Below, piece by piece: positions 4,233 to 64,000 of a stretch of DNA of 64,000 bases (the stretch's first letter is position 1; each line of letters starts with the position of its first letter). The notes beneath the pieces are model-generated. The model had not been told where the DNA came from and made no database searches. It was given only the letters and a program-made list of their open reading frames with translations. This stretch comes from Periplaneta americana. Taxonomy: Eukaryota; Arthropoda; Insecta; Blattodea; Blattidae. The stretch spans positions 123,537,914 to 123,601,913 of the forward strand of contig NC_091130.1 of NCBI RefSeq assembly GCF_040183065.1, given 5' to 3'. A program made the position numbers and the translations under genes.

Positions 4233-4624
4233 ATAGGTAAAGTTTGGTAATATTGTGATACCAATAATATAATGATAGTTCTCATTATTTATTCGAGAAA
4301 AATTCGTTCCGGCACCGGGAATCGAACCCGGGACCTCTCAGCTCTGCACGCTGAGTGCTCTTTCCAACTGAGCTATGCCGGGACACGATCCACGGTGCCG
4401 ATCGAACTCCTCTCGTTGTAATGTTGTAGTTCTTTTTGAGAATTGTTTACAATTTTACTGAGCGAGAGGAAGATCGGTTTTTTGCGTCAAAGTATTAAGG
4501 GAATGTTCATGGACAAGTTTCTGTACAAAACCTGTCTTTCTCTCACTCAGTAAAATTGTAAAAAATTCTCGAAAAGTACTATCATAACATTATTAATATC
4601 ACAATATTGCCAACCTTTACCCTA
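4233..4624. mobile_element. Foldback element carrying a tRNA-Cys-like sequence
   Basis: Left arm 4233-4306 (GGTAAAGTTTGGTAATATTG, GATAGTTCT, CGAGAAAAATTC) is repeated inverted at 4560-4624 (GAAAAGTACTATCATAAC, CAATATTGCCAACC). A second inverted pair, AATTGTTTACAATTTTACTG at 4441 and CAGTAAAATTGTAAAAAATT at 4548, extends the arms inward. The single tRNA-like body at 4308-4382 lies inside. Either two copies of a tRNA SINE inserted head to head and one lost its head, or the element captured a tRNA. Confidence 0.6.
4308..4382 (-). tRNA. tRNA-Cys(GCA)-like sequence, possibly a SINE head
   Basis: On the minus strand this folds as a cloverleaf. The acceptor CCCGGCA pairs with TGCCGGA (first pair mismatched). 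The D arm is GCTC...GAGC and the anticodon stem TCAGC/GCTGA. The 7-nt loop GTGCAGA has anticodon GCA, which would read Cys codons. The T arm CCGGG-TTCGATT-CCCGG is perfect. Box B is intact (GGTTCGATTCC). The 3' side continues into AACGAATTTTTCTCG, a tail resembling that of the SINE-1 copies at 23.5 and 23.9 kb. A SINE origin is therefore more likely than a cellular tRNA gene. Confidence 0.6.
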
Positions 4625-7813: not shown

Positions 7814-7830
7814 TTCTTCTACTATCTTGA

Positions 7831-8245
7831 CTTAGACTAGTTCCATATAAAGCAGGCGTGGTAAAATCGTATAGTAAACAGAGCAGTCGGTATATGATAC
7901 CCTAGTGGACCAAGAATTTGGAGGAACACCGGTGTTCATAAGAAGACTATTCAACAAAGGCAGAGGAGATTAATGCACTGGGTCCAGCAGCAAGAGTAAA
8001 TGAATACCCGTGCTACAGCAACTGTAGCGGGAAAACCTAAGCGCTCTGAGAGCGGACTTTTGCCAGGCCTGATATAAAGGTTACTGAACAGCCCCCTCTC
8101 TTTCCAATCCACGTAATGCAAAAATGCAACAAATATTTCATGAGAAACATTTCAAGTAGCCTACTTTGCTGACATTTTCGAACACATAAATATATTGAAC
8201 AGTACGAGTTTACAAGGCGAAAATGTTAGTATAATAACAGCCAGG
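7831..8245. other. No recognised feature
   Basis: Mixed-composition spacer. No coding motif or repeat that I can support. Confidence 0.4.
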
Positions 8246-9240
8246 GATAAAATCAAAAGATGTATAAATAATCTTTATCCATGACCATAACGAAAAACAT
8301 GTCTTTATTAAATACTTTTGCGTTTGTAAAGTAGGCTTTTATTCAACATTACTTTATTCCACTAGTGAGATAAAGACTTTACCTCACAGTTTGAACTTTA
8401 TCTCACAGTTCATTAGTATTTTCCTAGTACCCGGGCAAGCACGTATACTTTTCCATTGAACTATTACTCAAGAAGTTAATATATTAGTTACTAGATGTCA
8501 CTACCTGAACTTCTTTATCGCCATTTCTCAAATATTCACTCAATCTCCTTCTATTTTCTCTATCTACTATGTCGTAATTTGTGCAATGAATTCATATCTA
8601 ATACATATTTTTTTTTTTAATTTGTAGTAATTTACCTTTTGGGAGGCGAGGAGACTTGAACCTACGAAGTTTCATTTATAGTTTATAAGATTTTATAACA
8701 ACACGTTAACTGAGCTAAACAGACACGATGATTAATTACGTTTTAATATTCCTCTTAAGTTTACAGAAGTAAAACGTGAAATTATTTTAATCACATTAGT
8801 CCCGTGAACACTTCTAAATAATCCATGAATGTTGAAAAAGACGAAAATACACGTTTAAAATTGAAAAATATATATTAAAATTATATAATTAATTATAATT
8901 TGTTATTTATCCAACGCCTTAGGTACCATTCTTCACTAATCTTGGCCTCCTACATCGTAACCTATCTAATACACGTATCGACTCTAAAATCATTGCCATG
9001 ATATTATGTGATTATATGAGGACATATTTTCAACATATTTTCTTTTATAAAACATAATTTTTCGTTATGGCCATGGATAAAATTACGTATGGTACTTGTG
9101 AGCGTGATCTTTATTGCGCTCGTGTAATTTAAGCACTCGGCTCACGCCTCGTGCTTAAATCTTTCCACTCGCGCAATAAAGATGCACTTACCTCACAAGT
9201 ACCATAAATAATCTTGATTTCAGTTCATTACTTGACAAAA
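8246..9240. mobile_element. Hairpin element 2 with inverted flanking motif
   Basis: A strong hairpin at 9088-9206 pairs TATGGTACTTGTGAG, ATCTTTATTGCGC and TTTAAGCAC with their complements on the right arm. The motif TTTTTCGTTATGGTCATGG, on the minus strand near 8280-8303, recurs on the plus strand at 9058-9075, giving inverted edges to an 800-bp interior. The interior is A+T-rich and has no coding motif. Probably a non-autonomous element of the same kind as hairpin elements 1 and 3. Confidence 0.5.
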
Positions 9241-9595
9241 ATGAACGTTATGCATCTGAGTGCATGAAATGACTCGTGAAAAGTTTAGTTACGTAAAGTG
9301 CAGAGTTCGCTTTTGCGAACATGCAATTAAGTTTGCACAATTTTAAACAACAGCTTTTTCAGTATTTTCCGGAAGATTTAAAAAACCAAAGCAATTAAAT
9401 TTGCACAATTTTAAACAATAGGTTTATTCAGTATTTTCCGGAAGTAATAAAAAACAATGATAGTCACAGATGGATACTCAATCCACTTTTAGACAGTTGC
9501 GTTCAATTTGCAATGATTTCGGTACACGTTGTGCTAGTCATCAATGAATAACTTATCAATAATAGAACAGAATGGAAACATTTTCTTACAACATA
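9241..9595. repeat. About 67-bp tandem pair and flanking spacer
   Basis: Two adjacent units at about 9325-9391 and 9392-9455 share TTTGCACAATTTTAAACAA and TCAGTATTTTCCGGAAG. Nothing else is recognised up to the Helitron edge at 9595. Confidence 0.6.
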
Positions 9596-9904
9596 CTAGC
9601 TGAAAGTACCCGGCGTTGCCCGGGTTTTCCTCTCTGCTTCTGTTTTCAAATGAACTGGTTGATAAATTTTCGGAAATCTCGGAAACTCAACTATAGACAA
9701 CCAAAACGAATTGTCTTTACTAAGCTTTCCTCGCACATAAAGATGTATCTTTACTTAACTTTACTTACATGAATTAATACTCCTTAGCCAAATGCCTGCC
9801 AGGTTTAACTAAATTTAAAACAATTATAGATCAGGCACCGAAAAGAAAACATTTCATCGTGTGCCAGACGTTCAACTTTGTTTTAAATGTATATATATAT
9901 TTTT

Positions 9905-12852: not shown

Positions 12853-12961
12853 TACATTAATATTTGATCGTATATATTTTTGTTTCTTTATCTTTTTAAT
12901 AAATTTAACTTCCATTTGTCCGATTTTAATGTAGCCTATGTTCTTCTCCTGGTTATGAAGG

Positions 12962-14017
12962 TGAGACGGTTCCTCGTATAGGATGAGGAGATTTTCATTA
13001 GATTAGTATTTCGTGTTAATATTCTTATATGGATAGGATGCGCGGACATGTAAGTTAGTTTCAAAATCTGAGACGGAAGTAACAGGTGGACAGGAAGACC
13101 GAACCCAAGCTAGGGGGACAGGAAACATGTGTCCAGGCGTGGAGTTGACTGATGAGGGAATGTATGGACTTTGCCTGCGGGTGGTCAGTAAGATGACGCC
13201 AAGCCAGGTTTCAAAAAGAGATGATCTGGTATATGTCAGAGGATTGTCAGGACGCCGGAAGTAGGAGATGTTCTAGTTAACGAACAATTTTTGAAGAACG
13301 CGTCTTAAGTGACGTAAGTGTAATCATGGCCAATCAGGATTCTTAATAGAGACACGTGATATATAGATAGGAGGGCGAAAGTTTATGTTTGGTGGTTGAA
13401 AGTAGAGGATAGATTTGGCAGATGGACAGAAGGCAGAGAGAAGGCAGACAGAAGGCAGATAGACAGTGTTCGGAGAGGTCGAACTCCACATATTCTCGGC
13501 AAACCTAACTCGGAAGTATAACAATTTACGGACTTAGAATTTTTTTTAGTGGGTGTAGTAAGAAGTCGTGTGTTGCATTATTATTATAAGTCTGAATTCT
13601 TTCCTCTCATCACGTTATCAACTGTCCGTTATATTACTGGTGTTTTATAGTACAAAAGATATAATTACGTGAACTCAGAAATTAGTATACCAACTTGCGG
13701 GAAATGAGAGCGAGATATTATACACTTGGACGCGCATTTCTGCTAATCTGAAACGAACACTTAATAATAAGAATAAACGTTTTCATAGTTCTTACCAACA
13801 ACTTCTGGTGTGCGCCCACATCATTTCAACCTACGAGCACGTCTCCCAAACCCCATGTCCCGACCGTTTTGCAGCTGACCTGGGAACCTCATCCTCTACC
13901 GGAGTAATCTCGAGGAGGCTGGCGCCCAAATTAATCAGTGTATATAATTAATTATTGACATCGACGTGTCATCCTCGAGATACTTTCCATATACGACTGA
14001 GCTGGCAGCCGAGGGCA
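12962..14017 (+). repeat. 5' LTR of the coiled-coil LTR element
   Basis: Nearly identical to 17764-18821. The differences I could see are a 5-bp indel (GATATTATACACTT versus GATATTAGACTATACACTT) and a changed stretch near the end (TATACGACTGAGC versus TATTTCGGAGC). After CCGAGGGC the two copies diverge: this one continues into AAGGAAAGGCG, the 3' LTR into GACGTCGACCCGCATCA. So the last 17 bases of U5 and the primer site may have been lost or replaced here. A standard TGG-starting primer-binding site is not obvious. Confidence 0.85.
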
Positions 14018-14129
14018 AGGAAAGGCGTCGTGGGCAACGACGACGACTCCAGACGACCGTCGCAGACATGGCGACCCCGACGACGAAGGCCGGCCGCTTC
14101 ATATTTTGGCGTCCCAACGTCGGGCACGA

Positions 14130-14330
14130 GATGGCAACAATGACCACGGCGGGGATCGACGCGAGAGCCGACAGCCGACGCAGGGTTAATGCGCCTGATG
14201 GCAACAATGACCACGGCGGGGATCGACGCGAGAGCCGACAGCCGACGCAGGGTTAATGCGGCTGATGGCAACAATGATCGCAGCGGGGATCGACGCGAGA
14301 GCCGACAGCCGAAGCAGTGTTAGTAGAGCA
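14130..14330 (+). repeat. 67-bp tandem repeat in the LTR element leader
   Basis: Three units begin with GATGGCAACAATGA at 14130, 14197 and 14264, giving a 67-bp period. The first two are nearly identical; the third is diverged. The sequence is unusually GC- and CpG-rich (GGGGATCGACGCGAGAGCC) compared with the A+T-rich surroundings. It lies between the 5' LTR and the ORF, where packaging or translation signals would be expected. Confidence 0.85.
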
Positions 14331-14619
14331 GCTTGCAGTATCATGCAGTGTCAACGACCGACAGCCACAACACCATGCAGACCCCAAACAGCTGAGAACA
14401 ATGATGGACGGTGGGGGAGACGATCAACCAGGCGTAACCTAGAAGACGGCGATACGTAAGCATAAAGGGTTTCATTTCAATTGTTGTGTCCATATATATG
14501 TACATGTGTGTAATTCATTTTGGTAGGGTTTATTTTGTTTTTTGTGTTTAAGGGGAATTGTTGAGGATATATTATATATTACATGTTGCTAAGGAGCCAG
14601 ACTAGAAGTAAAAAAAAAA

Positions 14620-16683
14620 ATGGAGACTACAGCAGGGACGAGTACTAGCCAAGATAAAGAAAGTTCGCGAGGTTCGGACAATGCCATGTCGAATAATGTG
14701 TTAGAGCGGATATTGGAGCAGATGAATCAGATGAGGAACGAAATGAGAGAAACTAGTAATAATTTGAAGAGTGAGATGGCTGAGTATAGTAGCAGGCTAG
14801 AGAGCCATAGTAGCAGGCTAGAGAGCCAGTTCGGTAATTTGAAGAGTGAGATGGGTAATTTGAAGAGTGAGATGGCTGAGTATAGTAGCAGGCTAGAGAG
14901 CCATAGTAGCAGGCTAGAGAGCCATAGTAGCAGGCTAGAGAGCCAGTTCGGTAATTTGAAGAGTGAGATGGCTGAGAATAGTAGCAGGCAGTTCGGTAAT
15001 TTGAAGAGTGAGATGGCTGAGAATAGTAGTAGGCTAGAGAGCCAGTTAATGGAAAGTTCTGACGTATATCAAGAGCAAATTGGTCAATTAAGAAATATAA
15101 TGAACGAGAGATCTAATAGATTGGGAAATATGATAGAAGAGAGCTATAATAGATTGGGAAATGTACTAGCCGAGAATAGTAATGAGGTGGAAAGTAAATT
15201 AATTGAGGATATTAGTGAATTGAATAATAAGATAGCCCAGAATAATAAAGAAGTGGAAAGTAAATTGATTGAGGATATTGGTGAATTGAATAATAAGAGA
15301 GCCGAGAATAGTAATGAAGTGGAAAGTAAATTAATTGTGGATACTAGTGAATTGGATAATAAGATAGCTGAGAATAGTAATGAAGTGGAAAGTAAATTAA
15401 TTGAGGATATTAGTGAATTGGATAATAAGATAGCCGAGAATAGTAATGAAGTGGAAAGTAAATTAATTGAGGATACTAGTGAATTGAATAATAAGATAGC
15501 CGAGAATAGTAATGAAGTGGAAAGTAAATTGATTGAGGATACTAGTGAATTGAATAATAAGATAGCCGAGAATAGTAATGAAGTGGAAAGTAAATTAATT
15601 GAGGATACTAGTGAACTGGACAATAAGATAGCTGAGAATAGTAATGAAGTGAGAAATAAATTAGCTGTGGATATTGATGAATTGGGAGATAATCTAGATG
15701 AAAATTGTAATGTATTGGATAATAAATTAGAAGAGAATATTGATGAATTGAATAATATGGTAGCCGAGAATAGTAATGAAGTGGAATTTAAATTAGCTGT
15801 GAATATTAATGAGTTGAAAGAGAAACTAGTTAAAAATAGTACTGAACAGAAAGATAAGTTAGCTAAGAATGTCAATGAATTGAGTAATGAACTAGCTGAG
15901 AGTTGTAGCGAAGTGGAAATTAAATTAGCTGTGAATATTAATGAGTTGAAAGAGAAACTAGATGATAATAGTACTGAACTGAAAGATAAGTTAGCTGAGA
16001 ATATTAATGGAGTGAATAATAAGAAAGCAGGAAACAGTAATGAAGTGGAGAGTAAATTAGCTAAGGATATTAATGAGAATATTGGGGAATTGAATATTAA
16101 GGTAGCCGGAAATAATAATGAGGTGGAAAGTAAAATAAATATGGATATTAATGGATTGGACGATAATCTCGATGAGAATAATAATGAATTGCAGTATAGA
16201 CTAGCCGAGGACAGTATCAGGTTAGAGAGCCAGGTGTTAGAAAGTTATGGAGCATTCAGGGAGCAAGTAAATAGAGTAATCGAAAAGTTTGATGTGTTTG
16301 GGAGCGAGAAAGAGAATGCTAAAACCATCACAAACATGGGGCGGAGGGCAGAAGAAGCCTTCCCACCCCACAGAGGGTACAATAGCAATGACCATAATGA
16401 CGGTTGGAGCAGGGACCGGCCACACAGTGCTGGCGGTCATGGTTTACAACCCTACAATAATGACAGGCGGTACTGCGACGATCAAAGGAGTGAATATAGG
16501 AAGGGATATTGGAGGCCTCATTTTTCTGCAGGAGGAGAAAAAGTTACGTGGAAGCATGCTGGTAGATTTAATGTGAGGAGTAGTGTGTCTCCACGTGTAA
16601 ACTGTCAATTTAAGAATGGCACAATGACGTATGAGGAAGGCCGCATGATTCATGATAGACATCCAGGCGACGTACCAGGTTAA
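14620..16683 (+). CDS. 687-residue repeat coiled-coil protein of the LTR element (Gag-like position)
   Basis: The only long open frame of the LTR element. The start ATG follows an A-run and has A at -3 and G at +4. Residues 1-45 are Ser/Thr/Asn-rich. Residues 46-140 hold short repeats (SSRLESH, FGNLKSEMAE). Residues about 184-539 are sixteen modules of the form AENSNEVESKLIEDISELNNKI, 22 residues (66 bp) each with one of 26. Each module is two 11-residue units with hydrophobic residues at regular places, so an extended hendecad coiled coil is predicted. Residues about 555-687 are Gly/Arg/His/Tyr-rich and basic, possibly nucleic-acid binding. No CCHC zinc knuckle, protease or capsid homology motif is visible. 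Its position suggests a structural, Gag-like role; that is inference. I do not recognise a named family. Confidence 0.75.
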   Translation: METTAGTSTSQDKESSRGSDNAMSNNVLERILEQMNQMRNEMRETSNNLKSEMAEYSSRLESHSSRLESQFGNLKSEMGNLKSEMAEYSSRLESHSSRLESHSSRLESQFGNLKSEMAENSSRQFGNLKSEMAENSSRLESQLMESSDVYQEQIGQLRNIMNERSNRLGNMIEESYNRLGNVLAENSNEVESKLIEDISELNNKIAQNNKEVESKLIEDIGELNNKRAENSNEVESKLIVDTSELDNKIAENSNEVESKLIEDISELDNKIAENSNEVESKLIEDTSELNNKIAENSNEVESKLIEDTSELNNKIAENSNEVESKLIEDTSELDNKIAENSNEVRNKLAVDIDELGDNLDENCNVLDNKLEENIDELNNMVAENSNEVEFKLAVNINELKEKLVKNSTEQKDKLAKNVNELSNELAESCSEVEIKLAVNINELKEKLDDNSTELKDKLAENINGVNNKKAGNSNEVESKLAKDINENIGELNIKVAGNNNEVESKINMDINGLDDNLDENNNELQYRLAEDSIRLESQVLESYGAFREQVNRVIEKFDVFGSEKENAKTITNMGRRAEEAFPPHRGYNSNDHNDGWSRDRPHSAGGHGLQPYNNDRRYCDDQRSEYRKGYWRPHFSAGGEKVTWKHAGRFNVRSSVSPRVNCQFKNGTMTYEEGRMIHDRHPGDVPG

Positions 16684-17763
16684 TAAACGAGAATTTGTGT
16701 GAAGTTGAAAATAATATGATTTTAATTATAAGAAAAATAAGAATGTGTTTGTTTTGTGCATGTAGTATTTGAGCGGTATAAGCAACTAGAACCAAGAACT
16801 AATGTCAGTGCTGAAAATTTTAACCTTGTGAAAATTTTGTTACTTTTGTTTTCTTTTTGCCACCTTCAGAATTAGTTGTTTTTGTGTGTTTTCTTATAAG
16901 ACCATGCGATAAGTAGTATTCCCTGTGGCAATAATTTAAAGATGATATTAATAAGAACTAATAATGATTAATAATAATGATAGAATATTTTTTTTAATTA
17001 ACTTCATTTATGTTCATTTATCTGCAGAGGTTGAATGATTCCATTTGAATATGTATCCATTTTTTTAGAATCAATATTAAGTGCCAGACCATCATTTTTA
17101 GTTCGAGACATAAAGTTGTCCTCTATATTGAGGGGACGTTATTCGAGATGTGTATTCAAGGTTGCAGCTCATGTATGAGACAGGATAAATAGAGTCAGTT
17201 AGTATTTCAGAAGTATTATGTATCGTTTGGTATAATTTTGATTCTGGTTAATAATTATTTCGGTTTTATGGACGTAAATGTGTTTTCAAGGTTTCAGATA
17301 ATATATGAAGTATGATATAAAGGGTTAATTGGTATTTTAAAATGTATTATGTATTATTTAGCGTATATTTTTTTGTGGTTCATAATTCTTATTTCTATGT
17401 TATAAGTATAAGTATGTATCAAGGAACCGATCATGAATGTGAGTGAGAGAGCGCCATTGTATTCGGATGTGCCCTGAATGTTACGATTGGATGCTGTATA
17501 TATGTCAGGTAGAAGTCAGTTAAACTGACGTGTGAGGTGTAAGTAGGCGTGAGGTGTGTATATAGATTCATACATGTGAATAGTTGTAAATATGTAATAA
17601 TTGTAAGTGTAAATTTGTACATTGTTTATAAGCATAGCAAAAGGTGTATCCAAGTGTGACTAATTAGGGGACACCGGAGACTAGTAGCGAAGGTATTTTT
17701 TTTTGGGACGTCTCATAACAACAAATATTCCCTTGGGAATATTCTTTGTTATGAGAGGGCATT
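16684..17763 (+). other. Noncoding 3' interior of the LTR element
   Basis: A+T-rich region after the ORF with two imperfectly repeated stretches (GTGTATTCAAGGTTGCAG near 17150, GTGTTTTCAAGGTTTCAG near 17280; each followed by a GTATT...GTATTATGTAT block). No coding motif. The polypurine tract expected before the 3' LTR is poor (ATGAGAGGGCATT). Confidence 0.5.
17712..17755. promoter_or_regulatory. Stem-loop just upstream of the 3' LTR
   Basis: CTCATAAC and AATATTCCC pair with GGGAATATT and GTTATGAG around a TT turn, giving about 17 base pairs with small internal loops. It ends 8 bp before the 3' LTR, overlapping the place where a polypurine tract should lie. Function unknown. Confidence 0.75.
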
Positions 17764-18838
17764 TGAGACGGTTCCTCGTATAGGATGAGGAGATTTTCAT
17801 TAGATTAGTATTTCGTGTTAATATTCTTATATGGATAGGATGCGCGGACATGTAAGTTAGTTTCAAAATCTGAGACGGAAGTAACAGGTGGACAGGAAGA
17901 CCGAACCCAAGCTAGGGGGACAGGAAACATGTGTCCAGGCGTGGAGTTGACTGATGAGGGAATGTATGGACTTTGCCTGCGGGTGGTCAGTAAGATGACG
18001 CCAAGCCAGGTTTCAAAAAGAGATGATCTGGTATATGTCAGAGGATTGTCAGGACGCCGGAAGTAGGAGATGTTCTAGTTAACGAACAATTTTTGAAGAA
18101 CGCGTCTTAAGTGACGTAAGTGTAATCATGGCCAATCAGGATTCTTAATAGAGACACGTGATATATAGATAGGAGGGCGAAAGTTTATGTTTGGTGGTTG
18201 AAAGTAGAGGATAGATTTGGCAGATGGACAGAAGGCAGAGAGAAGGCAGACAGAAGGCAGATAGACAGTGTTCGGAGAGGTCGAACTCCACATATTCTCG
18301 GCAAACCTAACTCGGAAGTATAACAATTTACGGACTTAGAATTTTTTTTAGTGGGTGTAGTAAGAAGTCGTGTGTTGCATTATTATTATAAGTCTGAATT
18401 CTTTCCTCTCATCACGTTATCAACTGTCCGTTATATTACTGGTGTTTTATAGTACAAAAGATATAATTACGTGAACTCAGAAATTAGTATACCAACTTGC
18501 GGGAAATGAGAGCGAGATATTAGACTATACACTTGGACGCGCATTTCTGCTAATCTGAAACGAACACTTAATAATAAGAATAAACGTTTTCATAGTTCTT
18601 ACCAACAACTTCTGGTGTGCGCCCACATCATTTCAACCTACGAGCACGTCTCCCAAACCCCATGTCCCGACCGTTTTGCAGCTGACCTGGGAACCTCATC
18701 CTCTACCGGAGTAATCTCGAGGAGGCTGGCGCCCAAATTAATCAGTGTATATAATTAATTATTGACATCGACGTGTCATCCTCGAGATACTTTCCATATT
18801 TCGGAGCTGGCAGCCGAGGGCGACGTCGACCCGCATCA
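17764..18838 (+). repeat. 3' LTR of the coiled-coil LTR element
   Basis: 1,075 bp starting TGAGACGG and ending GCATCA, followed by the AAGG target duplication. It carries the same identical stretches as the 5' LTR. The 66-codon minus-strand frame present in both LTRs is probably incidental. The high LTR identity implies a recent insertion. Confidence 0.85.
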
Positions 18839-18896
18839 AAGGTTAAATGTGCAAGCTTTGACGCATATCGGTCAAAGCGTGTAGATTTGTATAGAG

Positions 18897-19016: not shown

Positions 19017-20758
19017 CTAGCTGAAAGCACCCGGCGTTGCCCGGGTTTTCCTTTCTGCTTCTATTTTTAATTAAACTGGTTATTAAATTTTCGGAAATCT
19101 CGGAAACCTAACTATACACAACAAAAACGAATTGTCTTTACTAGGCTTTCCTCGCCCATAAAGATGAATCTTTACTTAACGTCACTTACATGAATTAATG
19201 AACTCCTTAGCCAAATGCCTCCCAGGGTTAACTCAATTTAAAACAGTTGTAAATCACGCACCGAAAGGAAAACATATCATGTGCCTGACGTTAAACTGTT
19301 GTTTTAAATGTATTTATTTACTTGTTTTTATTTATTTATGTATGTATTTATTTATTCTGATGTAGTGAAGGCCATTAGGCCTTCTCTTCCACAGCGCCAG
19401 AAATACAAATAAAGTAATAGAAAAATCAAACTATTAACAAAGTAAAACCCAACGAAAATATAATTCCTTCTCCTCTTTCTGATCAGTTTCAGCATCGAAT
19501 CAATATACAGTATACATATATATTTATAATTTAATTTATATTGGAAGATTTTTTTACCTCTTGACCGCTGTACACCCACTTATATCATACCCCGTTCTTT
19601 TTTTTTTAATATAACCTTAAACTATGTCTCATAAATTCAGAACATCTTATATTTTTTCTAATTTTATCCACACAATACAGATATAATATAAACTCGCAAT
19701 AAGTCACTTTTTAACATAAAGAGAAACATATAGGTCTACCGATATTTTATAAATTAAGATATTTTCATTGCCACAACGCTTAACACACTAAATTTGCTAC
19801 GTGAACAACAATATTTTGAGAATTAATACGTTATTTTCAGTGGGCTTATGTACATTCACATACTATATTAGCAACATGAGAAAAGTATCATTGAATTGCT
19901 TATTGATATGTGTAAAATATTTTTTTTCCACTTCTTTGTATAAAATATAGTTGAGGACGTGAAAAACACGCAGTTTTTAAGTTAACGTCTGCAACTTTGA
20001 GCGACTGTCCTTGAGCTTCATTTCAATATGGCCATTACAAATGCTAGTGGCATTGAAATTGCAGTTGCTTAAAATTGAATGAGTATCCTAGCAATACGTG
20101 GAATAAAAACATCTCCTTTTATTTTTGCAGTTAATATTGCCAATTCTATTACGTTTCGTATGAGTTTTTCACACCAATAATTCTTATTCGTGCATAATTT
20201 TGGTGGGTCAGTATTTCGCAATAGTAGTCTACTATTGGTTATTCATTATTAAGTAAATTATGTGGTAGCAATCCTTGTAATTTCAAAGAATTCTAGAATT
20301 CAGTTGTATAAAACAGTTTGCTCATTATCTACAGAACTGCATCGAGGAATTCATAATACGATCCTGGACTGCGTAAAGATACTTAGTGCATGAATTATCT
20401 AGCTTTAGCCTTCGCGATCTGTAACAACAATGTAATTTAATTTCGTATTAAAATTTCCAAGGCCTCGTGAAAGTCGATGTTGAATACAACAGACAATAAT
20501 AAAAGAACAATTGACTGTGGAAGATTTTGTATTTTAATATTATACATGAAGATTTGATCTATTTATTTTTATATTTTATCATTTTAATTAATTAACTTCC
20601 ATTTGCACAATTTTAATGTAATCTATGTTCTTCTCCTGGTTATGAAGGTTAAATGTGCAAACTATGGCACATATCGATCAAAGCGTGTAGATTTGTATAG
20701 AGAACATACACACATACATACATATATACATACCCATATTCAATTTTATATATTAAGA
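19017..20758 (-). mobile_element. Helitron H2, tandem partner of H1
   Basis: Same family as H1. On the minus strand it begins TCTTAATATATAAAATTG at 20758, preceded by A, and ends CCCGGGCAACGCCGGGTGC then TTTCAGCTAG at 19017. The next minus-strand base is the first T of H1, so the two copies are joined with no host DNA between. It is 1,742 bp and holds a more decayed helicase relic (about 19950-20350). It preserves the empty sites for H3 and the LTR element. Confidence 0.85.
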
Positions 20759-28276: not shown

Positions 28277-28906
28277 TATTTATTTTTCAGCTATCTTTAT
28301 TGCAATAAGACACTAAGAAACTTCATCATAAATTGTATAAGTTCATATTAAGAAATGAAAGTGAAGACAAGGTAAAGTTCTTTTGATATGAAAATGGCTA
28401 GATGAGATTGAGCCCCAGTATTACATATTCCAGTCTCATCCATAACGTATAGGGGTCAGACACGACTAGAATCTGGTCCTAATCCGGGACAAGCGTTGTG
28501 CCCCGTGGTGCCGCCAGTGACTACCTGTTTGTTCGGGATTACGTAACCGCGATATGGGGTACAACGTGAAGTTACTTTAAATGTTGCCCTATTATCCAGA
28601 GGAAGGAGCCCAGCCGTAAGCACTGCAACACAAACCACAAACGGCTTATTAATGAAATTTAACGGGACACGGCGGATGTATAGAACACTGGTTCACCCAT
28701 GAAATGCAGTCACAGCTGCAAATAGATTTCCGGTAACTTTGTTCGGGCCACGGATTCAATGTGCGGATGTTGTAATTGGGATACCTAATATACAAAACAA
28801 TAATTAGGCCTATATTCAAAGTTTCACAGGTAGGCCTAATATATAGTTTTCCTTTCTTTCTTCTTATTCCACTTAATCTCCTAGTTTCATTCGACTTCCA
28901 CATCTT

Positions 28907-28910
<4 letters not shown>
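28277..28910. other. No recognised feature
   Basis: Spacer between the palindromic element and the triplet-repeat block. One moderately GC-rich stretch (28450-28640) has no motif. Confidence 0.4.
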
Positions 28911-28959
<49 letters not shown>

Positions 28960-30975
28960 CGTCACAACAAGAAGAAGAACAACAAAAACAAGAAGAGGAA
29001 AAAGAAGAAGTAGAAGAACAAGAAGAACAACAAGAATAAGAACAAGAAGAAGAACAACAACAAGAATAAGAACAAGAAGAAGAAGAACAAGAAAAAGAAT
29101 AACAAGAACAAGAAGAAGAACACAAGTAGAAAAGAAGAAGAAGAAGAAAAAGAAGAACAAGAACAAGAAGAACAACAAGTAGAAAATAAGATGAACAAGA
29201 AAAAGAAGAAGAAGAATAAGAACAAGAAGAACAACAACAAAAACAAGAATAGGAACAAGAAGAAGAAGAACAAGAAAAAGAATAACAAGAACAAGAAGAA
29301 GAACACAAGTAGAAAAGAAGAAGAAGAAGAAAAAGAAGAACAAGAACAAGAAGAACAAGTAGAAAATAAGATGAACAAGAAAAAGAAGAAGAAGAATAAG
29401 AACAAGAAGAACAACAACAAAAACAAGAATAGGAACAAGAAGAACAACAAGTAGAAAACAAGAAGAAGAAGAAGAAGAAGAAAAAGAACAAGAAGAATAA
29501 GAACAAGAACAACAACAAAAACAAGAACAGGAACAAGAAGAAGAAGAACAAGAAAAAGAATAACAAGAACAAGAAGAAGAACACAAGTAGAAAAGAAGAA
29601 GAAGAAAAAGAAGAACAAGAACAAGAAGAACAACAAGTAGAAAATAAGATGAACAAGAAAAAGAAGAAGAAGAATAAGAACAAGAAGAACAACAACAAAA
29701 ACAAGAATAGGAACAAGAAGAAGAAGAACAAGAAAAAGAATAACAAGAACAAGAAGAAGAACACAAGTAGAAAAGAAGAAGAAGAAGAAAAAGAACAAGA
29801 ACAAGAAGAACAACAAGTAGAAAATAAGATGAACAAGAAAAAGAAGAAGAAGAATAAGAACAAGAAGAACAACAACAAAAACAAGAATAGGAACAAGAAG
29901 AACAACAAGTAGAAAACAAGAAGAAGAAGAAGAAAAAGAACAAGAAGAATAAGAACAAGAACAACAACAAAAACAAGAACAGGAACAAGAAGAACAAGAA
30001 GAAGAAGAAGAAAAAGAACAAGAACAAGAAGAAGAAAAGAACAAGAACAAGAACAAGTAGAAAACAAAAAGAAGAAGAACAAGAAGAAGAAGAACAAGAA
30101 TAAGAACAAGAAGTAGAAGAAAAAAAACAAGAACAGGAACAAGAAGAACAAGAAGAAGAAAAGGAAAAAAATAAGAAGAAGAAGAAAAAGAACAAGAACA
30201 AGAAGAAGAACAAGTAGAAAACAAAAAGAAGAAGAACAAGAATAAGAACAAGAAGTAGAACTATAAAAACAAGAACAGGAACAAGAAGAACAAGAAGAAG
30301 AAGAAAAAGAAGAACAAGAAGAACAAGTAGAAAACAAAAAGAACAAGAAAAAGAACAAGAAGAAGAACAAGAAGAAGAAGAAGAACAACAAAAACAAGAA
30401 CATGAACAAGAAGAACAAGTAGAAAACAACAAGAAGAACAAGAATAAGAATAAGAACAAGAACGAGAACAAAAAAACAAGAACAGGAACAAGAAGAACAA
30501 GAGAAAGAAGAACAAGAACAAGAAGAAGAAGAAGAACAAGAACAAGAAGAAGAAGAAGTAGAAGAACAAGAAGAAGAAGAAGTAGAAGAACAAGAAGAAG
30601 AAGAAAAAGAACAAGTAGAAGAACAACAAGTAGAAGAACAAGAAGTAGAAGAACAAGAAGTAGAAGAACAAGAAGTAGAAGAACAAGAAGTAGAACAACA
30701 AGTAGAAGAACAAGAAGTAGAATAACAAGAAGAAGAGGAACAAGAAAAAGAACAAGAACAAGAAGAATAACAGCAACAAGTAGAAGAACAAGAACAAGAA
30801 GAACAAGCAAAAGAAGAAGAAGAAAAAGTACAAGAACAAGAAGAAGAAGAAAAAGTACAAGAACAAGAAGAAGAAGAAAAAGAACAAGTAGAAGAACAAG
30901 AACAAAAAGAAGAACAAGGACAAGAAGAGGAAGAATAAGAAGAACAAAAAGGAGAAGAAGAAAAACAAGAATAAA
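28911..30975. repeat. Two-kilobase purine-rich triplet repeat block
   Basis: It starts with (AAT)15 (28911-28957). About 2 kb of AAG, AAC, AAT and AGT triplets follows with almost no T on the plus strand. There is higher-order structure: AAAATAAGATGAACAAG begins at 29184, 29364, 29642 and 29822, giving 180-bp spacing within pairs and 458 bp between pairs. A 180-bp unit was therefore doubled and the roughly 360-bp result copied again. Very long minus-strand frames (Leu/Phe/Ser-rich, up to 710 residues) are by-products of the composition. Confidence 0.95.
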
Positions 30976-30984
30976 AATAGCTTC

Positions 30985-31817
30985 TGTGTGATGCTTTTCC
31001 AATTCACTGCGGGATAAAGCAAGGAGGTGTACTATCACCTTTCCTTTTTAACTTCGCTCTAGAAAATGCTACTAGGGTTACTTGGTTGAGATTTTTTCCG
31101 GAGTTTTCCCTCAACCCATTACGAGCAAATGCTGGGTAACTTTCGGTGCTGGACCCCGGACTCATTTCACCGGCATTATCACCTTCATATCATTCAGACG
31201 CTAAATAACCTAGATGTTGATATATCGTCGTAAAATAACCCAATCAAATTAAAAAAAAACATGGCATTAGGAAAGTTCAGGATAACAGAGAGGGCTTGGA
31301 ATTGAACGGGTTACATCAGCTTCTTGTCTATGCGGATGAATATGTTGGGAGAAAATCCACAAACGATTAGGGAAAACACGGAAATTTTACTTGAAGCAAG
31401 TGATACGATAGGTTTGGCAGTAAATCTCTAAAAGACGAAGTATATGATTATGTCTCGTGACCAGAATGTTGTACGAACAAAAATATAAGTGACACGCTGG
31501 AGGAAATTAAACATAGAATAAATATGGGAAATTCCTGTTATTATTCAGTTGAGAATTTTTTATCATCCAGTCTGCTCTCAAAAAATCTGAAAGTTAGAAT
31601 TTATAAAACAGTTATATTACCGGTTGTTCTGTATGGTTGTGAAACTTGGACTCTCACTTTGAGAGAGGAACAGAGATTAAGGGTGTTTGAGAATAAGGTT
31701 CTTAGGAAAATATTTGGGGCTACGAGGGATGAAGTTACAGGAGAATGGAGAAAGTTACACAACTCAGAACTGCACGCATTGTATTCTTCACCTGACATAA
31801 GGAACATTAAATTCAGA
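30985..31817 (+). mobile_element. LINE family E, copy 1, with a SINE inside
   Basis: It starts with RT motif B GIKQGGVLSPFLFNFALENA (30999-31075). SINE-3 follows. It continues ELNGLHQLLVYADEYVG (motif C altered, A-D-E instead of A-D-D) and a 105-codon frame (31524-31841) with LKVRIYKTVILPVVLYGCET and LRVFENKVLRKIFGATRDEV. The match stops at KFRR, about 31817, where hAT sequence begins. The 5' side abuts the triplet-repeat block. Confidence 0.75.
31075..31262 (+). mobile_element. SINE-3 copy inside LINE E
   Basis: GTTACTTGGTTGAGATTTTT to GTCGTAAAATAACCCAATCA and an A-rich end. The LINE sequence ATGCTACTAGG before and ATGGCATTAGG after is an imperfect target duplication, consistent with retroposition into LINE E. 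Confidence 0.75.
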
Positions 31818-60940: not shown

Positions 60941-62101
60941 ATGGGCTGTGAGTTGGAGTTGTACCGGGCAAGGATAGGCGGCTGGGCGGCCAGGTCAAGG
61001 ATGCAGCGGAGCGTGAAAGGGACAGCTTTGGCAGGTCTGGCTGAGTGTCTCTTCTTTCACATAGTGATCGCGATATTACTAATTATTGGTGGTATCGAAC
61101 TGAATCCAGGACCTGCAAGCGACAACGATGCTACCAGTATCAAATGTGGAAGCTGCAGAAAGAATCTACGAGTAGGCGTGCTGTGCAACCAGTGCGAGAA
61201 GTGGTTCCATCTGACTTGTCAGAAGATCAAAAGGGAACAGATAGTAGAAGAAACGTGGCTGTGCAAGGACTGCGGGAATGAGGCAGGCAACAGGGAGCTC
61301 ATCGGTCTTCGGAACGAGGTGAAGAAGCTACGGGAGAAGCTAGAGACGGCGGAGCAACGGATCAAGTTTCTGGAGGACGAAAATAAGTTGTTGCGACGGG
61401 AAAAGGAAAATGGCGAAGAGAGGGAGGAGAAGAAGAAGCATGGTACGGCAAGTGTTATCATCGGAGACTCCATCATTCGACACGTAGGGAATCTACAACC
61501 GGAGCTGGCGACAGAGTGTTACCCTGGGATTAGAGTGAAAGAAATGAAAAGCGTGATCGAGAATCAGGAACGAGGGGACCCGAAAAACATCGTCCTTCAC
61601 GTAGGAACAAACGATTTGCGAAGAGGTCTTGATTATATCATGGCAGATGTATATGACTTGGTGATGGAAACGAAGAAGAAATATCCGGCAGCTGGGATTG
61701 TCATCAGTGGAATCGTCAGACGGAGGGATGTGAACTGGAGAAAAGTGGGTCGTGTGAATAAAGCTTTCGAGTGGGTAGCGGAGTGTCTTGGTGCGCGTTT
61801 CGTCGATCCAAATTCCTGGATAGACGACAGATGCTTCGGAAGAGACGGAATCCACCTAAATCGGAGGGGAGCTGCAGACATGGGATCCCTCTTCGCGCGG
61901 GTAGTTACTACAACATGGCGGGGCGGGATCGAGGATCCAACAGCGGGCAGCGGCACCGAAGGACCATCAGTGGACGGCGGGGGCGTGGGGCTACCAGCGG
62001 TCAGCGGGAGTGAGAGTCTACCTGCGGGAGGAGGGGTCGAGGGACTACCAGCGGGCGGTGCGGTCGAAGACCTATCCGCGGGCGGCGTAGACCTGCAGTG
62101 A
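60941..62101 (+). CDS. CR1-like LINE ORF1: 2A-like peptide, PHD finger, coiled coil, SGNH esterase
   Basis: 386 residues, intact. Residues 36-50 are hydrophobic and lead into GIELNPGP (51-58), a 2A-like sequence with break point G57/P58; the canonical D before I/V-E is replaced by G. Residues 69-111 are a C4HC3 PHD finger (C69, C72, C82, C85, H90, C93, C108, C111). Residues 119-165 form a charged coiled coil. An SGNH/GDSL esterase domain follows: GDS 175-177 (nucleophile S177), GTND 222-225 and DGIH 302-305 (D302, H305), so the catalytic residues are present. Residues 320-386 are Gly/Pro/Val-rich repeats. ORF1 proteins of CR1-type elements with PHD and esterase domains are known; they bind RNA or lipids. 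The frame ends CTG-CAG-TGA-CGG. Confidence 0.85.
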   Translation: MGCELELYRARIGGWAARSRMQRSVKGTALAGLAECLFFHIVIAILLIIGGIELNPGPASDNDATSIKCGSCRKNLRVGVLCNQCEKWFHLTCQKIKREQIVEETWLCKDCGNEAGNRELIGLRNEVKKLREKLETAEQRIKFLEDENKLLRREKENGEEREEKKKHGTASVIIGDSIIRHVGNLQPELATECYPGIRVKEMKSVIENQERGDPKNIVLHVGTNDLRRGLDYIMADVYDLVMETKKKYPAAGIVISGIVRRRDVNWRKVGRVNKAFEWVAECLGARFVDPNSWIDDRCFGRDGIHLNRRGAADMGSLFARVVTTTWRGGIEDPTAGSGTEGPSVDGGGVGLPAVSGSESLPAGGGVEGLPAGGAVEDLSAGGVDLQ

Positions 62102-63325
62102 CGGCGAGGTGCCACGGGGATTCAGAATGTACAAGTAAGGACAGGCCTACTAAGACTACTGCAGGTTAATTGCCGAAGTATTAGAAATAAACTTATTCCG
62201 TTTTGGAACTTGGTCGATGTTTATAATCCAGATGTAATAATTGGGACGGAATCATGGCTTAGGGAAGACATAAATGACTCGGAAATTTTTAGGTCGGATT
62301 ATAGAGTCTTCAAAAAGGATAGAAGTGAAAAGGGAGGGGGAGTGTTCGTTTGTACTAAGATAGAAATAAGTAGCAATCTTCTGTGGATACATGAGGAAGT
62401 TGAAATATTGAATGTTCAGATAAGAAATGGGCGGGAAACCTTAGATGTAATAGCATGTTACAGACCACCCAGTGAATTAAACAATTTAACTTTGCACAAA
62501 CTAAATGAATATCTTAATACAGTATCAGAAGACCGAAACGTAGTAATTGCTGGGGATCTAAACCTCCCGAAAATTAACTGGAACGGGATTCAGGTACAAA
62601 TTCAGATGCACAGACCCTTGTTAATGAATTGATCTGGCGTAAAGTTTTCACGCAGGTAGTAAATGGTCCGACGCGTGACAATGCCCTCTTAGATTTACCT
62701 ACTAAGACCTGTCTCTCTCTTTGTCAACTCTGAAATTCTTCATAAAATAAGTGATCACAATAGCGTCTTAATAGAAATCTTCTGGGAAAACACAGTAAAT
62801 CCGAGGTCAAGTCCACTGTCTGTCTGGAATTTTAACAAAACCGATGTCCATGAATCACAAACGTTTCTACGACAAAAGCATGATGACTTTCTAAGGACTG
62901 AAGGAAATATGGAAAATGTGTGGCATAAATTTAAGAGTATAACTTTCGAGGCATTAGTAAAATGTGTACCTTCTAAAATAATTAAGAAAAATCCGGACCC
63001 AGAATATTACACTAATTATATTCGCTACTTAAAGAAGAAGACAAGGCGCGCATTTAGCAAACGTAAACGAAGCCATGAGCATTGGGAAAAATATGTCGAA
63101 TTAATTAAGAAACTTGAGTGTGAAAAAAGGTTAGCTCAGGAAAATTTTCTAAAAACTATTTTAAAAGAAGATGAAAGTAACAATTGGAGACAGTTTTATA
63201 ATTATGTACGCAGGAGAAAAGGAAAAAACGAAGGAGTAGTGCTTTTACGAAATCAGAACGGTGAAAGTATAACTGATGACAAAGAAAAGGCCGACTTATT
63301 AAATTCCTATTTCATTTCGGTTTTC

Positions 63326-63358
<33 letters not shown>

Positions 63359-64000
63359 CCCGCTGATAGGAGTGGTTGCGTCACAGACCGTGAATGTGAA
63401 CCAAATTCGACTTTCAAAATAACTTCCAAAGGGGTTAGAGAGAGAATAACGAAATTAAAAAATCGGAAGTCTCGAGGACCAGATAGTATTGCTACAGAGA
63501 TTCTTAAATTAGGTTCCGAGGCCATAATTCCATACTTAATGCGTATATTTCATGTTTCCATAAACAATGCAGCTATTCCATGTGACTGGAAATCAGCTAT
63601 AGTGGTACCCATACATAAAGGTGGAAATAAATTAGATGTCGGAAACTACAGACCGATTAGCCTTACATCTGTCGTATGTAAAGTCATGGAGCATTTGATA
63701 TCGGATTATATTCGTCATGTTCTAACTGCGAAAGACTGGTTTTACAACCGCCAGCATGGTTTTAGGGAAGGCTTCTCATGTGATAGTCAAATTACGTCGC
63801 TGGTTCAGGATCTAGCTGAAGAGGTAGATAGAGGCGGAAGAATCGATGCAGTTGTGATCGATTTTTCGAAAGCATTTGATTTGGTGCCACATGACATATT
63901 AAGAGATAAGTTAAGTAGGCTAGGAATAGATAAAAAAAGTGGTGCTATGGATCCAAGAATTCTTAAAAGGTAGAACCCAGAGAGTTAGAGGAGGTCATGA
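62102..64000 (+). pseudogene. CR1-like LINE ORF2: endonuclease and reverse transcriptase (partial)
   Basis: It is in frame with ORF1 after one UGA and shows no ATG before the endonuclease. Endonuclease motifs: LLQVNCRSIRNK, VIIGTESWLRED, GGGVFVCTK, VIACYRPPSE, VVIAGDLNLPKINW and, after a -1/+1 pair of frame changes (about 62592 and 62695), ISDHNSVLIEI. Reverse transcriptase: LKNRKSRGPDSIATEILKLG, IPCDWKSAIVVPIHKGGNKL, NYRPISLTSVVCKVMEHLIS, QHGFREGFSCDSQITSL and motif A VVIDFSKAFDLVPHDILRDK. An (AAT)n run adds 11 Asn before the RT (63328-63358). The frame shifts again at an A-run near 63936 and the gene leaves the window. Confidence 0.85.

Follow-up and report, generated by a model that had tools for sequence, protein, structure and literature searches.

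In a 64,000-nucleotide stretch of the genome of the cockroach Periplaneta americana (contig NC_091130.1, positions 123,537,914 to 123,601,913 of the forward strand; hereafter the window), positions 12962-18838 are almost certainly a young, non-autonomous copy of a long terminal repeat (LTR) retrotransposon, and the class of the element is secure. We favour, with a probability of roughly 60%, the explanation that this copy belongs to a non-autonomous LTR family, most like Ty3/gypsy, that is mobilised in trans and retains one protein of its own, which acts in cis. The family is multi-copy and young, and it has kept one protein per element while losing every usual enzyme gene.

The initial annotation, made from the letters of the window, had proposed a recent LTR insertion, and this is borne out by the AAGG target duplication, by the TG start and CA end of both LTRs, and by an exact empty site in a related repeat. 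The left and right flanks match that repeat with 86% and 92% identity and overlap there in AAGG itself, and the joined 20-base pattern, allowing up to three mismatches, occurs once in the window against 0.02 expected. The two LTR cores (1031 and 1036 bp) are identical over 1031 positions, with one 5-base gap as their sole difference. The near-identity of the LTRs of about 1 kb noted earlier therefore holds for the cores; it does not extend to the 3' tails, whose difference had been overlooked. The element and its surroundings are laid out as follows.

12958-12961, no strand: left target-site duplication (TSD), AAGG.
12962-14101, plus strand: 5' LTR, 1140 bp, with core 12962-13992 and a long 'tail B' (13993-14101) ending CGCTTCA.
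13920-13929, plus strand (again at 18727-18736): TGGCGCCCAA within the LTR, identical to the first bases of the family primer-binding site (PBS), 0.03 expected in the window.
14107-14125, plus strand: PBS TGGCGTCCCAACGTCGGGC, 5 nt past the LTR end, a variant of the TGGCGCCCAACGTGGGGC of other copies.
14126-14619, plus strand: leader, with a 67-bp repeat in three copies (14130-14330).
14583-14619, plus strand: upstream ATG (MLLRSQTRSKKK...), out of frame with the long frame in the window.
14620-16683, plus strand: single long open reading frame (ORF), 687 amino acids, with no Pol, capsid (CA) or CCHC signal found.
15139-16062, plus strand: main hendecad array (residues 174-481), with 28 units of eleven residues in register.
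16228-16680, plus strand: unique tail at the C-terminus (residues 537-687), mildly basic and for the most part unstructured in the model.
16684-17752, plus strand: 3' untranslated region (UTR), 91-97% identity in other copies.
17709-17758, plus strand: RNA hairpin; the 101 nt folded give -30.3 kcal/mol, z -3.2.
17753-17763, plus strand: candidate polypurine tract GAGAGGGCATT, a short purine-rich stretch of putative function directly before the 3' LTR.
17764-18838, plus strand: 3' LTR, 1075 bp, with the same core and a short 'tail A' ending CCCGCATCA.
18839-18842, no strand: right TSD, AAGG.
20639-20658, plus strand: empty site GTTATGAAGGTTAAATGTGC in the related repeat.

The candidate polypurine tract stands unchanged before all 3' LTRs displayed, its unbroken purine run covering only 7 of the 11 bases, and the stable hairpin at 17709-17758 directly adjoins it on the upstream side. 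Ty3/gypsy elements (Metaviridae) have target duplications of 4-5 bp and a tRNA-Lys PBS. Since the element has 4-bp duplications and a PBS that we take to be of the tRNA-Lys type, it is most like this group; the resemblance is one of gypsy-like ends, and by Pol the element is not a Ty3/gypsy member.

An LTR query of the genome, with the best 40 of 900 candidates scored, returned at least 41 places with 89-100% identity. Nine further full copies have the same layout (L009, L010, L011, L012, L014, L015, L016, L019 and L023/L047), while L028 is 5'-truncated or deleted, and L020/L029 and L046 are 3' parts. In six other LTR pairs, a measurement that left out L012, L013, L016 and L023/L047, the cores differ by 0-4 mismatches per ~1010 positions. 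A 4-bp TSD was found by script in six of seven elements (the window copy, L009, L010, L011, L014 and L015) and not in L019, where two family LTRs stand tail to tail at 7826-9901 with few bases between them. L012 and L013 form a tandem of the type LTR-interior-LTR-interior-LTR with apparently identical units, probably the product of recombination between copies, and L013, as its second unit, was not counted separately.

The single frame runs from METT to GDVPG. The initial annotation had raised the question of random stops in other copies; the frame is open in nine of the ten full copies read, encoding 687 amino acids in the window, 566 in L009, 661 in L010 and L012, 553 in L014, 749 in L015, and 711 in L016 and L019, with the two pieces of L023/L047 also reading in one frame. 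Repeat number differs between copies whose frame stays open. All nine copies measured have a start-to-end distance divisible by three; in eight of them the open frame entails this, so that L011, whose frame is broken, is the independent case. Gaps between copies are divisible by three in 61% of cases within the ORF (256 of 421) versus 15% in the 3' UTR (46 of 300), counted pairwise over 36 pairs that are not independent, with gap placement in the ORF made ambiguous by the repeats.

Substitutions outside the repeats point the same way. The ratio of non-synonymous to synonymous rates (dN/dS) is 0.37 (9 sequences) or 0.48 (11 sequences) in the C part, 0.66 over the first 50 codons (10 sequences), and 0.30, the lowest among the copies, over the last ~72 codons from EYRKGYW (11 sequences). 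The value of 0.66 supersedes an N-terminal estimate of 1.52 over 56 codons, which was dropped because it included misaligned repeat ends. Among 10 sequences, the C part holds 18 synonymous and 32 non-synonymous distinct changes and no stops, against expectations of 11.4, 36.5 and 2.1, respectively (synonymous excess, P 0.024). Over 13 repeat modules, the corresponding polymorphism ratio (pN/pS) is 0.82. These comparisons suggest weak-to-moderate purifying selection in the unique parts of the ORF and make selection on the frame likely; as far as sequence comparison can tell, what is selected is the frame with its unique ends, and not the sequence of the repeats. The earlier proposal that the frame is selected is consequently supported by the other copies, and not by the youth of the window copy.

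The frame might instead be a passenger, a stop-free 66-base tandem repeat that is open by chance in young copies that have not yet decayed. Because such a repeat stays open by itself, the length of the frame alone is weak evidence, and the passenger explanation also draws on the lack of synonymous excess among eight repeat modules, on the near-identical LTR pairs and on an antisense repeat frame that is open for 243 codons. However, the frame is also open in the unique N and C parts, where dN/dS lies between 0.30 and 0.66, and it survives many insertions and deletions among copies whose UTRs differ by ~3.5%. The gap comparison already largely contradicts this explanation, which we consider quite improbable.

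Turning to the encoded protein, the ORF at 14620-16683 is, as had been claimed, the only long frame, the only other one of at least 150 amino acids being the 243-residue antisense frame inside the repeats. Its hydrophobic periodicity peaks at 3.665 residues, that is 11/3, from which the rod is predicted to be a straight hendecad coil. From residue 174 onwards, 28 of 29 consecutive 11-residue units fit by our own criterion, which makes about fourteen modules of 22 residues in a single register, flanked on both sides by less regular repeats; the 11-residue repeat described earlier therefore stands, while the count of sixteen paired modules does not. An AlphaFold2 model built from two input sequences places helices at residues 19-227, 235-462, 477-560 and 566-580 and leaves the tail otherwise largely unstructured. 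With a mean per-residue confidence (pLDDT) of 60.6 and a predicted template-modelling score (pTM) of 0.20, only the helical nature of this model is trusted. The tail is mildly basic and rich in Gly, Asn, Arg and Tyr, and no Pfam profile at E<=10 matches it after the coil. In agreement with the initial annotation, neither a CCHC motif nor a capsid signal was found in the 687-residue protein by motif scan, Pfam or the model. Six of nine copies have the upstream start MLLRSQTRSKKK in the reading frame of the ORF; in the window, L011 and L012 the length of an A run shifts it, and METT is the safer start. A literature search found nothing joining hendecad, Gag and retrotransposon.

It had also been suggested that the protein could be a captured host gene, an apolipoprotein-like or cytoskeletal coil carried as cargo. 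Its Pfam matches are mainly of coil type, and the best of them, the only one above its cut-off, is Apolipoprotein (144 bits against a cut-off of 90), with matches in the PDB to apolipoprotein A-IV at E 3.9e-15. Apolipoprotein repeats are 22-mers punctuated by proline, and proline is absent from residues 26-545 of the cockroach protein; the match reflects the common 11/22-residue periodicity, and membership of the apolipoprotein A/E family was rejected. Apolipoproteins A/E are secreted lipid carriers of the host, and the present frame lies within an LTR element. When 5.8 billion proteins were searched by a word-based method, which considers only candidates that have short words in common with the query, one relative of the C-terminal part emerged at E<=1, the P. 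americana gene model ANN_22430 (P0001), and none of the N-terminal part at E<=0.01. A host origin is thus very unlikely.

The single relative bears on another explanation, in which the element is a deletion derivative of an autonomous gypsy-type element, its coil and basic tail being the remnant of a Gag whose capsid, zinc knuckle and downstream pol were lost. P0001 has the same coil and tail, with 79% identity over 509 aligned positions, followed by a gypsy reverse transcriptase (RT) stretch of ~155 residues whose best local identities to gypsy Pols, among the matches listed, are 37-85%, many of them ~70%. A gypsy polyprotein of a spider (P0005) likewise carries a coil at its N-terminus, followed by CCHC, protease, RT and RNase H, and the upstream peptide MLLRSQTRS presumably resembles the basic Gag starts of gypsy-type elements. 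Nevertheless, P0001 departs from the family right after YCNDQR(N) and is without the conserved C-terminus. No protease is seen in it, and the RT breaks off sharply at residue 817, in the manner of a chimeric gene model; within the family, the tail after the coil is conserved up to the stop and has no counterpart in Pfam. P0001 may be a chimeric gene model or annotation artefact, or a trace of the partner, and for the same reasons it was not accepted as proof of an autonomous partner. The deletion derivative is, in our judgement, a somewhat unlikely account of the family.

Enzyme genes were sought by tblastn with a panel of 120 proteins, namely the listed matches of the P0001 search (of 5813 found), with P0001 included. 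Neither gypsy-type RT nor integrase was found in the element with this panel; at E 1e-3 the coil of P0001 alone finds a match in the window, and L009-L029 show no Pol similarity at E 1e-6 once matches within that coil are set aside. Two candidates for the partner were rejected: L020/L029, which is only a 3' fragment in which no Pol was found, and eight tail-bearing LTRs considered as possible partner 5' LTRs, all of which are solo LTRs. The sole Pol-like match near the latter is a weak one in the flank of L030 (36% over 50 residues, E 5e-4). No relatives were confirmed in IMG/VR and GTDB contigs.

An LTR element that has no Pol of its own depends on that of another, and a frame that is kept while the enzymes are borrowed suggests a protein that favours its own RNA. 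Under the favoured explanation of mobilisation in trans, the enzymes of an autonomous partner element would reverse-transcribe and integrate the family copies, while the protein would act in cis on its own RNA. The position of the protein, its rod and its tail together suggest a Gag-like, RNA-bundling role: the straight hendecad rod would oligomerise, the mildly basic Gly/Asn/Arg/Tyr-rich tail would bind the RNA of the element, and the bundled RNA would be carried into particles built with the Gag of the partner, unless the protein itself replaces part of Gag. Preferential mobilisation of copies that make the protein would be the simplest route by which the frame could be selected. We regard the cis-acting, Gag-like role as a reasoned guess and give it slightly less than even odds; the protein may also be the filamentous scaffold envisaged in the initial annotation.

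Several observations weigh against this explanation. RNA binding, oligomerisation and entry into particles are predictions, and the net charge of the tail is small (+5 for residues 546-687 and +8 for the 172 residues of L010). One of the ten full copies, L011, is broken by a stop after 277 codons. Gaps in the UTR are mostly short, 140 of 300 being single-base, so that the contrast between ORF and UTR is partly a matter of sequence type, and the pairwise counts share ancestry. The absence of stops in the C part reaches only P 0.11 and the polymorphism test only P 0.024, while eight modules of the window copy (residues 185-360) hold 8 synonymous changes against 8.75 expected (P 0.69), the absence of stops there being unremarkable (P 0.43). 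Finally, no autonomous partner was found among the copies read; genome-wide, only the LTR query stands behind this result, and absence is not implied.

The tails of the LTRs record a second process. In other copies the LTR ends in ...CTACA, CTTCA, TTACA or CATCA, followed by 4-5 nt and then by the PBS TGGCGCCCAACGTGGGGC or a variant. Given this true PBS beyond the tail, both TGGCGCCCAA at 13920 as a working PBS and a deleted 5' LTR end were ruled out for the window copy. Single-base differences aside, the 5' and 3' tails differ in two of the nine elements compared (the window copy and L015). Both U5 ends should derive from one strong-stop DNA, and the mismatch therefore points to template switching between two RNAs, of different subfamilies, during reverse transcription.

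PBS-like patterns are also buried within the tails. Sixteen occurrences were counted in 9 of 16 solo-LTR tails (TSD determined by script for 15 and by eye for L024; the tail of L037 lacking its first 77 bases as entered), where 500 sets of letter-shuffled tails gave 0.92 on average and 5 at most. The clear GGCGCC type accounts for 12 of the 16 patterns, in 8 tails, with up to three in one LTR (L026); because the tails share ancestry, the events cannot be counted as independent. The ending is ...CAACG, partly built into the pattern, in eleven of the 12, and CAACC in that of L031. None continues into the TGGGG of the working PBS, and all 12 continue into a new LTR end. Such buried former PBSs, one to three per tail, lie in the TSD-bounded solo LTRs L018, L022, L024, L026, L031, L032, L034 and L037; the tails concerned in the window are 13993-14101 (tail B) and 18800-18838 (tail A).

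This pattern suggests that the LTRs lengthen by repeatedly absorbing their own PBS, and TGGCGCCCAA at 13920 is possibly the oldest one buried. In such a ratchet, plus-strand strong-stop DNA would mis-anneal through CAACG to the U5 tail, the LTR end and PBS would be duplicated, and the next cycle would prime at the downstream PBS, so that the LTR grows and the old PBS is buried. A literature search on PBS duplication gave nothing relevant among the matches listed, which leaves the novelty of the ratchet unproven. The combined proposal, in which Gag has been replaced by a hendecad rod with an RNA-binding tail that hijacks partner particles in cis, together with a PBS ratchet in the LTRs, is unlikely to be right in all its parts.

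Elsewhere in the window, positions 60941-63973 hold a fragment of a long interspersed nuclear element (LINE), with an ORF1 containing a PHD finger followed by a reverse-transcriptase ORF. This ORF1 has a GDSL-type esterase match just under the cut-off and a GIELNPGP motif, which we take to be 2A-like. A tRNA-Cys gene or tRNA-derived repeat lies at 4306-4382 on the minus strand, and a long A-rich low-complexity region (28649-31038) contains four overlapping or adjacent antisense ORFs of Leu/Phe/Ser repeats that are probably artefacts.

Non-autonomous LTR elements are usually non-coding or carry a normal Gag. If our explanation is true, a capsid-less rod under frame-preserving selection would show the minimal gain that a retroelement parasite draws from a protein of its own, and the family would offer a natural test of cis-preference. 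The primer sites buried in the LTRs, in turn, would be a readable record of the movement of an LTR boundary.

Among known systems, LARD elements are LTR elements without Pol that have a large non-coding interior. The cockroach family is likewise without Pol, whereas its interior codes and its ORF is kept in frame among copies. The Gag-Pol of the Trichonephila clavipes gypsy element (P0005) resembles the cockroach protein in its long N-terminal coil, which matches the same Pfam apolipoprotein profile weakly, at 28.8 bits against a cut-off of 90. What follows the coil sets it apart: a CCHC motif (18.1 bits against a cut-off of 20.8), a protease, RT and RNase H, none of which is found in the cockroach family.

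The expectation in the initial annotation that a Gag normally shows CCHC needs a caveat, since the Gags of foamy virus and of the Drosophila errantivirus gypsy work without Cys-His/CCHC motifs, according to the portions consulted of PMC3705263 and PMC2577118. Foamy Gag, as described in the same portions, has predicted coiled coils together with a C-terminus rich in Arg and Gly by which RNA is packaged; the likeness to a coil followed by a C-terminal tail is an analogy of layout. No sequence similarity to the cockroach protein was found, and, as these sources present them, those elements are autonomous, with Pol of their own. A further parallel is with the TR-GAG elements of plants, one-ORF elements such as Arabidopsis AT5TE33540 that transpose, in the excerpted account of PMC8704663. 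Two LTRs, one ORF, the lack of Pol, recent insertions and mobilisation in trans are common to both on that account. The same excerpt gives the TR-GAG ORF as a recognisable GAG with a known autonomous relative, whereas the cockroach protein has no Gag signature and its partner was not found. Even without that signature, the layout of the cockroach family, as read from its copies, is TR-GAG-like.

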